A stretch of 50,594 nt of DNA, taken from Bhargavaea beijingensis. GTDB taxonomy: Bacteria > Bacillota > Bacilli > Bacillales_A > Planococcaceae. Below, piece after piece: positions 5,920 through 25,393 of this stretch. The DNA lies in assembly GCF_900101985.1 (NCBI RefSeq), contig NZ_FNAR01000019.1, forward strand, positions 1 to 50,594, written 5' to 3'. The first letter of the stretch is position 1. Every line of letters starts with the position of its first letter. Made by a program: the position numbers and the translations under genes. The notes beneath the pieces were generated by a model. That model ran no database searches and was not told the DNA's origin. It was given only the letters and a program-made list of their open reading frames with translations.

Positions 5920-7662
5920 ATGGCACCAACAAACTCTAAAAAACAGGACGGGCTAAAGCCGTTTATCCGCCTGATCCGCTCCACAGGCATTCCAAAAGCC
6001 GCGTTCGGCGTCGGAATCGCCGGTTTTCTCATTACAACCATTGTCGGGCTAGCCATTCCACTTCTTACCAAACAGCTGGTGGACGGGTTTTCCCTGGCAA
6101 CCCTCAGCCCCATGCTGATTGCGGCCATTGTTGCCGCATTTCTCATCCAGACTGTCATCGACGGGATCTCGACTTATCTCCTGAGTTACACCGGGCAGAA
6201 ACTCGTCGCGGACTTGCGGGGGAAAATGTGGCGCAAGCTGCTCCGGCTTCCGGTCTCTCATTTCGACGCGGAGACAAGCGGCGGAACAGTCAGCCGGGTC
6301 ATCAATGATACAGGGATCGTAAAGGAACTCATCTCGAACCATGTACCGCAGTTTATCAGCGGCATCATCTCCATTATCGGCGCGGTGGTTCTGCTGCTGA
6401 TCCTCGACTGGCAGATGACACTCGTCATGCTGATCTCCATCCCGGTCACAATGGCGCTCATGATTCCCCTCGGCCGCCGCATGGCCAAGATTTCGCGCGG
6501 TATGCAGGACGAAACCGCTGCCTTCAGCGGCAGCATTCAGCAGACCATCAGTGAAATCCGCCTGATGAAGGCATCGAACGCCGAAGAAGATGAGGAGAAA
6601 AGAGGCACAGGCGGGATTCATAGGCTGTTTGACTTCGGACTCCGGGAGGCGAGGATCAACGCGATCATCGGCCCGCTGATGGGCCTGATCATGTGGGTGG
6701 TCATCGCGTTCATCATCGTCTACGGGGGGATGCGCGTCGCGGACGGCTCGATGTCCACAGGCACGCTGGTCGCTTTCCTGCTGTACCTTTTCCAGATTGT
6801 CTTTCCTGTTACGACGTTCGCCATGTTCTTTACGCAACTGCAGAAAGCCAAGGGAGCCACGGAACGAATTATCCAGATCCTCTGCCTTGAGCCGGAGCCG
6901 GGACAGAACGGGGCCAATGTGGATGTTTCAGGTCTCCCGATCATCGTGGAAGATGTCAGCTTTTCCTACCAACCCGAAGAGCCGATCCTCAAAAACATTT
7001 CGTTCCGCGCGAATCCGGGTGAAATGATCGCTTTCGCCGGACCGAGCGGCGGAGGCAAATCCACGATGTTCGCTTTGCTTGAACGGTTCTACGAACCGGA
7101 CAGCGGGGTCATCCGCGTCGGGGATACACCGATCGCTGCCCTGTCACTCGATAATTGGCGGAGCCAGATCGGTTATGTCCCGCAGGAAAGCGCGATGATG
7201 TCCGGCACGATCCGGGATAACCTTCTCTACGGCCTTGAACAGGACAAGATCTCTGAAGAAAAAATCCGGCAGGCATCAGATATGGCGTTCGCCTCGGAAT
7301 TCATCAAAAGTTTCCCTTCCGGACTCGACACCGAAATCGGTGAGCGCGGCATCCGGCTTTCCGGCGGCCAGCGACAGCGCATCGCCATTGCCCGGGCGTT
7401 TCTCAGAAATCCGAAAATCCTCATGATGGACGAGGCGACGGCAAGCCTGGACAGCCATTCGGAGGGGATTGTCCAGGAAGCCCTTCAACGCCTCATGGCC
7501 GGGCGCACGACATTTGCCATCGCCCATCGACTGTCCACAATCGTTGATGCCGACCGCATCATTTTCATTGAAGATGGACGAGTGACCGGAACAGGAACCC
7601 ATCAGGAGTTATTGGACTCCCATCCGGTCTACAGGGAATATGCCGGGCAGCAGCTCATATGA
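5920..7662 (+). CDS. ABC transporter, fused permease/ATPase (BmrA-like exporter)
   Basis: The 580-residue half-transporter has six membrane segments in the first 300 residues, then an ATPase domain with Walker A GPSGGGKST, signature LSGGQRQR, Walker B ILMMDEAT and the H-loop in AIAHRLST. Such homodimers export drugs, lipids or peptides, and the closest named type by layout is BmrA. AAGGAG lies seven to eight bases before the ATG. It is a lone plus-strand gene with the minus-strand GGDEF gene upstream. A CTGACA-17-CTATCA pair near 5851-5879 may be its promoter, which is a weak call. Confidence 0.92.
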   Translation: MAPTNSKKQDGLKPFIRLIRSTGIPKAAFGVGIAGFLITTIVGLAIPLLTKQLVDGFSLATLSPMLIAAIVAAFLIQTVIDGISTYLLSYTGQKLVADLRGKMWRKLLRLPVSHFDAETSGGTVSRVINDTGIVKELISNHVPQFISGIISIIGAVVLLLILDWQMTLVMLISIPVTMALMIPLGRRMAKISRGMQDETAAFSGSIQQTISEIRLMKASNAEEDEEKRGTGGIHRLFDFGLREARINAIIGPLMGLIMWVVIAFIIVYGGMRVADGSMSTGTLVAFLLYLFQIVFPVTTFAMFFTQLQKAKGATERIIQILCLEPEPGQNGANVDVSGLPIIVEDVSFSYQPEEPILKNISFRANPGEMIAFAGPSGGGKSTMFALLERFYEPDSGVIRVGDTPIAALSLDNWRSQIGYVPQESAMMSGTIRDNLLYGLEQDKISEEKIRQASDMAFASEFIKSFPSGLDTEIGERGIRLSGGQRQRIAIARAFLRNPKILMMDEATASLDSHSEGIVQEALQRLMAGRTTFAIAHRLSTIVDADRIIFIEDGRVTGTGTHQELLDSHPVYREYAGQQLI

Positions 7663-7673
7663 AAACATTTCCT

Positions 7674-7702
7674 TTGACTTGTTATCATGCATCTGATATT
7701 AT
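7674..7702 (+). promoter_or_regulatory. strong sigma-A promoter with no protein gene behind it
   Basis: TTGACT (7674-7679) and TATTAT (7697-7702) are separated by exactly 17 bases, each one mismatch from consensus. It starts 11 bases after the ABC transporter stop, and the predicted start of transcription is about 7709. The downstream DNA encodes no plus-strand protein and ends in a terminator, so the promoter most simply serves a non-coding RNA. Confidence 0.75.
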
Positions 7703-7708
7703 TAAAAC

Positions 7709-7979
7709 TTGTGATGTTTCATCTTGAACGGAATCGGTTAGAACTGGCGTCCATTCGCATGATGCGGAGGACACTCATTCACGCTGGCGCGGCTATAGGG
7801 CCGCAAGGACGCAATAGCAGGTAGGGATTGCGTTGCTTGGGTTAGCATGTGAGTGGATTCATACCGCGGCAAAGAACCCCTTAAGCTAAACGGGGGAGAA
7901 AAACGGAAAACGATTGGCTTCAACTGAACATTGCCGAATAAAAAAAGGGATGCTCCGCTTACGCGGACGCATCCCTTTT
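7709..7979 (+). ncRNA. candidate structured non-coding RNA of about 270 nt
   Basis: Between the strong promoter and the hairpin at 7943-7979 the strand can form many helices: 7713-7716/7720-7723; 7749-7752/7769-7772 with an inner 7756-7759/7763-7766; 7772-7777/7850-7855 enclosing 7789-7793/7800-7804 and 7809-7815/7827-7833; and 7877-7880/7892-7895. The loop of the last (7885-7891) can pair with 7841-7846 as a pseudoknot. No plus-strand ORF with a ribosome-binding site lies inside. I find no hallmark of tmRNA, RNase P, SRP, 6S, T-box or the riboswitches I know, and the neighbouring nupC runs the other way. Function is unknown. A member of a known large Firmicutes RNA class such as raiA RNA cannot be excluded by eye. 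Confidence 0.55.
7939..7979. terminator. bidirectional terminator (nupC and candidate RNA)
   Basis: An 11-bp outer stem (7943-7953 with 7969-7979), a one-base bulge and a 5-bp inner stem (7954-7958 with 7963-7967) close on a TTAC loop. On the minus strand it is followed by a T run, making it the nupC terminator. On the plus strand the stem itself ends in TTTT. Confidence 0.85.
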
Positions 7980-7996
7980 CCAATTCCTTTATACGA

Positions 7997-9211
7997 TTAC
8001 ATGAACATGCCGGCGATCGATGCGCTAAGCAGGGATGCAAGCATACCCGCCGCCACGGCACGCATCCCCATGCGGGCGATGTCCGGGCGGCGTTCCGGCG
8101 CCATCCCACCAAGACCGCCGAGCAGAATTGCAAGCGAGCTCAGGTTGGCGAAACCGCAGAGTGCGAAACTGATGACCATGACCGTCTTATCGGAAAGCTC
8201 GGCAATTTGAGGGGCAAACGATGCGTATGCCACAAACTCATTCAGCACAAGCTTCTGGCCGATAAAGCTTCCCGCCTGCACGGCCTCCTGCCATGGAACA
8301 CCGATAGCGAACGCAAGCGGCGAGAACACATAGCCGAGGATGCTCTGAATCGTGAGATCCTCTGCGCCGAACCAGGATCCGATTCCTCCAAGCAGACCAT
8401 TCAGAAGGGCGATCAGTGCGATGAATGCGAGAAGCATCGCACCGACATTAAGTGCAAGAGACATTCCGTCCCCTGCTCCTTTTGCTGCAGCATCAATGAC
8501 GTTGGTCGCACCCGTATCTTTTTCCATGATGAATTCATCATCTTTCGGCTTTTCTTTTTCCGGCATGATGATTTTCGCCATGATCAAACCTGCCGGGGCC
8601 GCCATAAAGCTTGCCGCGATCAGATACTCGAGCGGAACGCCCAGTAGCGCATATCCCGCCAGTGTGGAACCGGCTACGGAAGCAAGGCCCCCGGTCATGA
8701 CTGCGAAAAGTTCCGAGTTGGTCATGTTCTTCAGGAACGGACGGACCACGAGTGGCGCTTCCGTCTGGCCGACAAAAATATTCGCAGCTGCAGAAGTGGA
8801 CTCGGTCTTGCTTGTCCCAAGCAACTTCGAAAGTCCGCCGCCGAGCAGTTTGATGACCCACTGCATGATTCCGAGGTAGTAAAGAACGGAAATCAGAGAC
8901 GAGAAGAAGATGATGATGGTCAGCACCTGGAAGGCGAAGATGACACCCAGCTCTCCATTGCCGTCACCGAGCGGCCCGAACAGGAACTTAATCCCTTCAC
9001 CTGCATAGCCGATCACGTTGTTGACGGCGTCTGTCACATTCAACAGGATTTTCCGGCCGATTTCCGACTTGAGGACGATAAACGCAAACAGAAGCTGAAG
9101 CGCAAGACCGCCGATGATTGTCCGCGGGTTGATCGCTTTTTTCCCGGTTGAGAAAAGAAATGCAATACCGAGAACGACGGCCATACCCATCAGGCCCCAC
9201 AAAATATTCAT
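7997..9211 (-). CDS. nupC: nucleoside:cation symporter, CNT family
   Basis: The 404-residue polytopic membrane protein has the concentrative nucleoside transporter signatures [12 protein letters not shown] (near residue 145) and LNEFVAY in the C-terminal half. It would import nucleosides with H+ or Na+. GGGGA lies six bases before the ATG. It stands alone with its own terminator. A 16-bp palindrome 61-76 bases upstream is a likely operator. I see no purine riboswitch in front of it. Confidence 0.93.
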
Positions 9212-9469: not shown

Positions 9470-10324
9470 CTATTCGTAAATTCTTTCTTTTGAAAAGCCA
9501 TGCCCCAAAATTTCGGAGGCATTCAGGAAAACAACAAAGGAAGCAGGTTCTTTCTCATTAAGCATTTTTTTCAGGTACACCGCTTCTGACTGTTCCGCGA
9601 CACAGAGAATCATGGTTCGTTCGCGGTTGGAATGTCCGCCGGTCACCTTCAGCTTTGTGAGCCCCCGGTCGATTTCATCACGAATGATCTTCCTCACTTC
9701 TTCTTCCCTCTCAGTAATGATGAGGATCAGTTTTTGAGGCGAAGACTGCAGCTGGACGAAGTCGATGACTTTGCTCGTTACATAGATGGCCATCAGGGCG
9801 AACAGCGCAAGTTCGAAATCAAAGACGAACGCCGAGGCCAGGACAACCGCTCCGTCCACGATCAGCTGGGCGAACCCGCTTGAAATCCCCGTAAACTTTT
9901 TCAGGATCTGCGCAATCAGCGCCGTCCCGCCGGTGGAGCCGTTGCCCCGGTAGACGATGCCAAGCCCCACCCCCAAAAGGATCCCCCCGTAAATCGAGGA
10001 CAATAGCGGATTTTGAACCCCTAAGTTGAGATCGGCCGTCAACCAGATGGTGAACGGGACGAATAAAGTGCCGACAAGGGACTTCATGCTGAAATCCCGC
10101 CCGGCCAGGATAACCGCGAGGATGAACAGCGGAATGTTGATCAGCCACTGCACATAAGCGGGGTTCGCGCCATAAAGTTCATAAATGATGGTGCTGATTC
10201 CGGATACTCCGCCGGCAGCCAGCCTGGCGGGCAGCAAGAATAGATTAAAACTTAATCCTACAAGTGCCGATCCAAAGAGGATCAGCAGATAATCGTTGAA
10301 TACAGTTTTACTGAATGTCTTCAT
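9470..10324 (-). CDS. YitT family membrane protein (DUF161 + DUF2179)
   Basis: The 284-residue protein has five to six membrane segments in residues 1-200 (DUF161/YitT repeats with a G-N-G-S-T-G-G loop near the middle) and a soluble C-terminal DUF2179 domain of about 80 residues (from LILIITEREEEVRK). Bacillus genomes hold several paralogues. The transport substrate is unknown. I chose ATG 10324, nine codons inside the longest frame, because AGGGAGGGG lies just upstream. It is a single gene with its own terminator, between nupC and the xpt-pbuX operon. Confidence 0.9.
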   Translation of the reverse strand: MKTFSKTVFNDYLLILFGSALVGLSFNLFLLPARLAAGGVSGISTIIYELYGANPAYVQWLINIPLFILAVILAGRDFSMKSLVGTLFVPFTIWLTADLNLGVQNPLLSSIYGGILLGVGLGIVYRGNGSTGGTALIAQILKKFTGISSGFAQLIVDGAVVLASAFVFDFELALFALMAIYVTSKVIDFVQLQSSPQKLILIITEREEEVRKIIRDEIDRGLTKLKVTGGHSNRERTMILCVAEQSEAVYLKKMLNEKEPASFVVFLNASEILGHGFSKERIYE

Positions 10325-10459
10325 ACCGGTCCCCTCCCTTTTGCATCCCATCTATTTTAGCAGTCCCGCACAAGATGGGATTTCTGAATTCCTTTAGCTG
10401 ACTGATGGGATAGACTGATGCGAGCGGTGATAGATATTATTTTGCTAACGAATGAAAAG

Positions 10460-10541: not shown

Positions 10542-12697
<2,156 letters not shown>

Positions 12698-22609: not shown

Positions 22610-22697
22610 GGAGATGTACCCAAGAGGCTGAAGGGGACTGACTCGAAATCAGTTAGGGCGTTCACGCGCCGCGGGGGTTCAAATCCTCTCATCTCCG
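22610..22697 (+). tRNA. tRNA-Ser (anticodon CGA)
   Basis: The 88-base gene folds as a class II tRNA. The acceptor stem GGAGATG pairs with CATCTCC (22690-22696), the anticodon loop CTCGAAA lies within ACTGA/TCAGT, and there is a long variable arm and a GGTTCAAATCC T-loop. CGA reads UCG. CCA is not encoded. A terminator follows. Confidence 0.96.
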
Positions 22698-25319: not shown

Positions 25320-25393
25320 GTCCTGGTAGCTCAGCAGGATAGAGCAACAGCCTCCTAAGCTGTAGGTCGGGAGTTCGAATCTCCCCTGGGACG
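25320..25393 (+). tRNA. tRNA-Arg (anticodon CCT)
   Basis: The 74-base gene has acceptor stem GTCCTGG/CTGGGAC with two wobble pairs, a D-arm AGCTCAGCAGGATAGAGC, anticodon loop CTCCTAA within ACAGC/GCTGT, and T-arm GGGAGTTCGAATCTCCC. CCU reads AGG. CCA is not encoded. Confidence 0.96.

Follow-up and report, generated by a model that had tools for sequence, protein, structure and literature searches.

A conserved structured RNA predicted opposite the Rfam BsrC match, between an ABC transporter gene and nupC, in Bhargavaea beijingensis

What does the short stretch between an ABC transporter gene and the convergent nupC gene of Bhargavaea beijingensis encode, on which strand, and what could its product do? 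The question was raised by a preliminary description of a DNA stretch of 50,594 nucleotides (called the window hereafter, always at its full length), which proposed at this place a stand-alone structured RNA with its own promoter. The upstream ORF (5920–7662, plus strand) has a product matching Pfam ABC_membrane and ABC_tran, and the downstream gene nupC (7997–9211, minus strand) matches TIGR00804 above the cut-off. The promoter first described as TTGACT-17-TATTAT is indeed there, with an extended −10 (TG) in addition; its first base lies 12 positions past the stop codon of the transporter ORF, i.e., 11 bases separate them. The strong hairpin reported at the end of the region is also there, and the locus can thus be delimited as follows:

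7674–7702, plus strand: near-consensus sigmaA promoter, with −35 TTGACT, a 17-base spacer, and extended −10 TG-A-TATTAT (from pattern and relatives)
7709–7982, plus strand: predicted non-coding RNA gene of about 270 bases (start and end set from promoter and terminator; homologues agree)
7943–7979, plus strand: terminator hairpin (−26.2 kcal/mol for the fold of 7940–7985; also found in relatives)

In order to compare this locus with its relatives, 193 loci were fetched, oriented, and aligned as 72 representatives after clustering at 87% identity; one locus (L031) was too short and was excluded from the representatives. A filter requiring the palindrome CCGCGG 3′ of a conserved core, together with a promoter 5′ of it, was passed by 110 of the 193 loci, and 40 representatives of these make up our full-length set. 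In this extended form (110/193 loci), the promoter lies about 70–100 bases 5′ of the core, as in the window. The parts outside the core are variable among the loci. The terminator hairpin is paired in 330 of 377 cells of the full-length set, and 11 of its 12 pairs are double-changed, i.e., on both sides. With its A-run on the left and its T-run on the right, it can terminate nupC as well as the RNA; a stricter terminator pattern did not list the hairpin 7943–7979 on either strand.

The plus strand of 7709–7982 folds at −97.5 kcal/mol (z −3.36, with 1 of 200 shuffles equally good) and the minus strand also folds better than chance (z −3.83), so folding energy alone cannot pick the strand. A small mRNA was considered and rejected: there is a 45-codon plus-strand ORF at 7687–7824, but the longest ORFs of the 40 full-length relatives differ in position and sequence, none of them being shared, and 44 of the 72 cores have no open frame across 85 bases. 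The statement that no plus-strand gene follows the promoter thus stands in the sense of a conserved gene, and so does the statement that the RNA is not a leader, at least in this window, where the next gene is convergent. Elsewhere in the window, we found a purine riboswitch (12596–12697, minus strand, 82.2 bits) and two tRNAs (22610–22697 and 25320–25393, plus strand), all ordinary.

The locus was then compared with known RNA classes by scanning all 4227 families of Rfam 15 at their gathering scores, and 7600–8060 also at E values up to 5. Only one match in the region reached the gathering score:

7759–7846, minus strand: Rfam RF01410 BsrC match (55.1 bits for a gathering score of 38), antisense to the predicted RNA

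At E values up to 5, nothing came up in 7600–8060 beyond BsrC and two sub-threshold matches to BSnc120. Covariance models of 6S, tmRNA, RNase P, SRP, T-box, raiA, OLE, ROOL, and riboswitches gave no match, in agreement with the preliminary description as far as it had considered these classes; its suggestion of a possible new class did not take in that the locus does match a known family, BsrC, though on the minus strand. A search that respects strands would miss the plus-strand RNA for that reason. By its score, the site belongs to RF01410; transcription from the strand of that model is not what the comparative signals indicate. The RF01410 model has 87 positions and a single stem-loop, whereas the RNA described here is on the opposite strand, with a three-way junction, a length of about 270–320 bases, a promoter, and a terminator. 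The locus is therefore known; the strand, fold, and extent given here are absent from Rfam 15, in which there is no plus-strand match.

One has to keep in mind that what is G-U on the true strand appears as A-C when the opposite strand is read. Across 19 column pairs and 72 sequences (1365 cells), we counted 1115 Watson-Crick pairs, 161 G-U, 15 A-C, and 74 other combinations, which places the RNA on the plus strand of the window; the alignment used to select the helix columns was read on the RNA strand, which favours the G-U count slightly, not tenfold. Expression signals point to the same strand. Upstream on the RNA strand, 46 of 72 representatives reach a crude sigmaA score of at least 9.5; this compares with 5 of 72 for the other strand and 0 of 72 after shuffling (mean of five each). 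Hairpin-plus-T terminators of −8 kcal/mol or better were found in 36 of 72 for the RNA strand and 9 of 72 for the other; in this crude scan, such a promoter is missing in 26 representatives and such a terminator in 36. In the window itself, no minus-strand promoter pattern was found between 7400 and 8300, and the nupC terminator sits between nupC and the site of the BsrC match. The proposal of a stand-alone structured plus-strand RNA with its own promoter and end hairpin is thus supported by comparison.

We then built a model, R1, from 70 sequences including that of the window. In the 20 loci run with both models, R1 and RF01410 overlap and lie on opposite strands without exception. On this comparative ground, the RNA of the window is almost certainly the orthologue of the bsrC locus, read from the strand opposite RF01410.

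The fold was deduced from the 72-representative alignment, on which RNAalifold predicted 11 pairs (10 of them double-changed), and from a trimmed alignment, A3, of 70 of these sequences (L178 and L185 being omitted). As this comparison shows, the predicted conserved core is a three-way junction of helices P1, P2, and P3: in A3, 93.5% of cells are paired and 18 of 19 pairs are double-changed. The covariation score is 0.561 versus 0.249 in shuffled alignments (0 of 500 as high), and sliding the partners brings it to 0.167 at most. The elements of the RNA are, on the sequence of the window:

7761–7851, plus strand: conserved core as matched by R1 (80.5 bits; the source alignment of R1 includes this sequence)
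7773–7776, plus strand: 5′ arm of P1, ACTC, the junction-closing helix (4 of 4 pairs double-changed, 82.9% of cells paired)
7839–7842, plus strand: 3′ arm of P1, GGGT, pairing with 7773–7776
7777–7783, plus strand: joining strand J1/2, ATTCACG, with the conserved AUUCA (alignments A2 and A3)
7784–7807, plus strand: hairpin P2 (7 of 7 pairs double-changed), made of P2a (7784–7785/7806–7807) and P2b (7789–7793/7800–7804) with an internal loop GGC/A
7808–7834, plus strand: hairpin P3, stem 7808–7815/7827–7834 (7 of 8 pairs double-changed, 96.1% of cells paired)
7711–7718, plus strand: 5′ arm of the putative terminal helix P0, GTGATGTT (40 full-length relatives)
7927–7934, plus strand: 3′ arm of P0, AACATTGC (40 full-length relatives)
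7864–7869, plus strand: CCGCGG palindrome, shared by the loci with the extended form

The loop of P3 (7816–7826, AGCAGGTAGGG) has several invariant bases in A3, and its conserved element, AGNAGGUAGGG, is purine-rich. AUUCA (7777–7781) and AGNAGGUA (7816–7823) resemble the T-loop and D-loop sequences of tRNAs; a loop-loop contact between the two can be imagined. The CCGCGG palindrome could let two RNA molecules kiss. The terminal helix P0 is only moderately supported: in the 40 full-length relatives, 209 of 271 cells are paired, 5 of 8 pairs are double-changed, and there are 44 G-U versus 14 A-C. The longest helix between the 5′ and 3′ ends has a mean of 9.4 pairs with the RNA's own partner versus 7.8 with swapped partners, and reaches at least 8 pairs in 31 of 40 RNAs versus 50% of the swaps.

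The compensatory changes that were to be expected of a structured RNA are thus present, in helices other than those initially named. The closing helix first drawn at 7772–7777/7850–7855 does have complementary arms (CACTCA/TGAGTG), but relatives give it little support (149 of 209 cells paired, with 31 A-C versus 41 G-U); likewise, the arms of the loop-helix pseudoknot drawn between 7841–7846 and 7885–7891 can pair with a bulge, but in the relatives only 50 of 96 cells are paired, with many gaps, even if double-changed cells occur at all six of its pairs. Both were rejected because of their poor support across the 40 relatives.

How widespread is this RNA? As R1 was built from 70 of the sequences aligned here, the following figures are partly so by construction. 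In the window's family, an R1 match was found in 250 of 261 genomes, with all 19 genera represented and one copy in nearly all genomes; in the class, it was found in 123 of 250 genomes and 55 of 105 genera, with up to three copies. RF01410 also matches 123 of these 250 genomes, as well as our B. subtilis control. In a sample of 249 genomes from the phylum, R1 has matches in 11, of which nine are in the class; the two matches outside it (25.7 and 23.9 bits) are near noise. The former (L208, 327–459, minus strand) comes from a genome outside Bacilli (G298); it keeps TTACTTATTCAC and GCTTAGGTTA, with a larger insert replacing P2, and the two other genomes of its family (3 genomes) gave no hit. 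BLASTN with the plus-strand sequence recovered relatives in 139 of 261 family genomes. An exact pattern of the core was found in 72 named contigs, mostly of Sporosarcina, and also of Bhargavaea, Psychrobacillus, Paenisporosarcina, Kurthia, Oceanobacillus, Ornithinibacillus, Virgibacillus, Brochothrix, and others; when a strict pattern was run on 398 genomes of the phylum, it hit no genome other than that of the window. One record titled Arthrobacter beigongshangensis (L081) carries an RNA resembling, over the part compared, that of a Sporosarcina-type locus (L012), and this record may be misnamed or contaminated.

The genes around the RNA show no such constancy. The orientations of the left and right neighbours in the 72 representatives (++ 20, −− 20, +− 16, −+ 16) indicate no fixed context; the downstream gene, which can be of many kinds, is co-directional in 36 of 72, as expected by chance. 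A cold-shock (csp) gene lies just downstream on the same strand in four loci (L117, L120, L122, and L172), where the RNA might act in cis, and a CarD-like gene adjoins it in another (L193). Near-universal presence in the family, no conserved ORF, and no fixed neighbours are thus what the comparison shows of this predicted gene.

Published data on bsrC can be reread in this light. In a Bacillus locus of our set (L191), genes for an SDR protein, a GNAT-like ORF, and a PNPOx protein, the R1 match, and genes for Amj and an Lrp/AsnC regulator follow one another on one strand. We take the PNPOx gene to be ydaG and the Amj gene to be ydaH, i.e., this row would be ydaD-ydaH. The synteny ydaG-RNA-ydaH is therefore found in Bacillus, whereas the locus of the window lies elsewhere, between the ABC transporter gene and nupC. 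As PMC3574147 describes it in the part available, B. subtilis bsrC indeed lies between ydaG and ydaH; RF01410 and B. subtilis bsrC thus correspond to the same loci as the R1 RNA. A strand-specific array, in the extract of PMC2784878 at hand, joined the bsrC segment with the upstream gene; given the synteny of L191, we infer that the joined gene is most likely ydaG and that the transcript is on the R1 strand. BSGatlas, in the portion seen of PMC8208703, lists another Rfam bsrC hit, located between cspC and ydeB.

All ten R1 matches on contig C1 of the genomes of another family (f2) are on the minus strand. This family is presumably that of Paenibacillus, with contigs starting at dnaA. Loci similar to those of f2 (L157, L161, and L144) have predicted RNAs of 288–300 bases. 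The available text of PMC5670726 gives for Paenibacillus riograndensis an intergenic transcript of 322 nt, on the minus strand at 688 kb, named BsrC; by the corresponding text of PMC4634765, the BsrC homologue was undetected by dRNA-seq in B. amyloliquefaciens FZB42. In the literature searched, partly in extracts, neither the RF01410 number nor any function for bsrC was found. A comparable history is that of CsfG, a small RNA of Bacillaceae that is likewise conserved, structured, and co-precipitated with Hfq, and that was initially read as a leader on the other strand before a Northern blot put it on the reverse strand; it differs by its locus (ylbG-ylbH) and its CU-rich loops, a comparison made by published description only (available part of PMC3574147).

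Bacteriophages also carry the core. Weak R1 matches (26.5–52.7 bits) were found at six chromosomal places (L210–L215), which are phage-like: over 115 bases, L210 shares 75.7% identity with Brevibacillus phage Emery, whose copy is flanked by two small ORFs in an early region. Sequence patterns found eight viral contigs; the chromosomal core had no match in phage records. One viral contig (L217) has the ordinary chromosomal form (92.9 bits), perhaps because this copy sits in host DNA, and another (L219) carries, besides a phage-type core, a match to Rfam BsrG (RF01412, 112.1 bits) at 10151–10406 on the minus strand. In 15 phage-type loci, the core is followed after 3–19 bases by the start of a small ORF that has a ribosome-binding site; these ORFs differ. 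Just 5′ of the core, a hammerhead-like sequence (GAAAC...GTC...CTGATGA) is found in 8 of these 15 loci (L210 at 310–464, L212, L218, L220–L223, and L226, where hammerhead-like sequence, core, and ORF follow one another) and in none of the 193 chromosomal loci. Of nine phage-type loci scanned with Rfam, L210 alone has a confirmed type II hammerhead (39.4 bits for a threshold of 37), and some of the 15 loci are near-identical; the hammerhead association is thus to be taken as a lead. These cores recall the type II hammerhead-linked phage RNAs (prophage hammerheads of Perreault et al. 2011) in that they also lie beside hammerheads in prophage operons, a setting described for many hammerheads in the available sections of PMC3088659; the chromosomal RNA has no hammerhead, and the three-way junction is not mentioned in these sections. 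Two other identifications of the phage-type motif were rejected: the DUF3268 motif, since Pfam has no match for the small ORF of L210 and no such hit came from Rfam, and a supposed name for a hammerhead-linked Firmicutes RNA, for which no relevant literature came up and which does not appear in the same sections of PMC3088659.

What, then, could this RNA do? The explanation that we favour as a whole, with a probability of roughly 0.6, is that of a stand-alone RNA of about 270 bases, orthologous to bsrC, acting in trans as a partner-binding platform. A single-copy gene would be transcribed from 7709 on the plus strand by the main sigma factor, and transcription would end at the hairpin 7943–7979; the covarying stems would hold AUUCA (J1/2), GGC/A (P2), and AGNAGGUAGGG (P3 loop) as a platform that a conserved partner (most likely a protein) binds, framed by the P0 helix, the CCGCGG arm, and the terminator. 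In phages, where it sits immediately 5′ of the ribosome-binding sites of early genes, the same platform would act in cis. The stems vary and AUUCA, GGC/A, and AGNAGGUAGGG are nearly fixed throughout the class, which suggests that the folded RNA presents these bases to something that does not change. Since its neighbours vary and it has a promoter and a terminator of its own, the RNA should act in trans, and the position of the phage copies before ribosome-binding sites suggests that the partner acts on mRNA, either on its stability or on its translation. The role of trans-acting, partner-binding regulator, taken by itself, is a tentative proposal to which we give slightly less than an even chance.

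Could the RNA rather be a cis-regulatory element, riboswitch or attenuator, which became detached from its gene in this lineage? A conserved junction with invariant loops does resemble a ligand pocket, the phage copies do precede ORFs, directly before their ribosome-binding sites, and csp genes follow the RNA in the four loci mentioned above; the constant place before a co-directional gene that a leader or a riboswitch would have was nevertheless not found, as co-directional downstream genes are no more frequent than expected by chance and are diverse, nupC being convergent in the window. We thus consider this origin unlikely.

An Hfq-dependent small RNA whose P3 loop would pair with mRNAs seems to us just as improbable. 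Known ligands of Gram-positive Hfq are purine-rich, like the P3 loop AGAGAGGUAGGG. The bsrC locus also has the top enrichment, 53.6-fold, at the head of the Hfq co-precipitation table (available part of PMC3574147), but the strand was lost in that experiment. Moreover, 7 of 123 RNA-bearing genomes, several of them complete, have no match to Hfq (TIGR02383): G042, G503, G717, G728, G737, G747, and G865, the last being absent from the match rows. Hfq is therefore not an obligatory or general partner, and was rejected as such; in B. subtilis only, it is a candidate. A loop that is near-invariant throughout the class would in addition demand an equally invariant target.

A little less likely still would be an element protecting RNA from 5′-to-3′ decay by RNase J, i.e., a stable decoy in bacteria and a 5′ shield on phage mRNAs freed by hammerheads. 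Known exonuclease-resistant RNAs of other systems have the shape of a three-way junction, and the eight phage-type copies with a hammerhead-like sequence on their 5′ side have an ORF with a ribosome-binding site on their 3′ side; on the other hand, a single hammerhead is confirmed by Rfam among the nine phage-type loci scanned and none of the 193 chromosomal loci has one, and no pseudoknot locking a ring has been established. The idea that the functional product is the RNA on the RF01410 strand, with the plus-strand signals due to an antisense partner or to nothing, has a curated Rfam family and a good minus-strand fold on its side, but is very improbable in view of the G-U excess, the promoter and terminator counts, the lack of a minus-strand promoter pattern and the intervening nupC terminator in the window, and the array reading combined with the synteny of L191 (extract of PMC2784878).

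The partner-binding RNA that we favour would have a broader implication, which we put forward as a possibility falling somewhat short of an even bet: RF01410 may be reversed and may hide a major unrecognised class of three-way-junction RNAs of Bacilli, near-universal in one family at least, acting in trans in bacteria and as a cis leader in phages of Bacilli, behind self-cleaving hammerheads and before early genes, with the same conserved factor of RNA metabolism in both. An important role is to be expected of an RNA found in 250 of 261 family genomes and in roughly half of the Bacilli sampled. If the Rfam strand is wrong, work that relies on RF01410 (probes, deletions, target predictions, and automatic annotations) addresses the wrong molecule. 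The corrected strand, fold, and boundaries make the function directly testable in B. subtilis, the phage copies being a natural experiment on the action of the core in cis.
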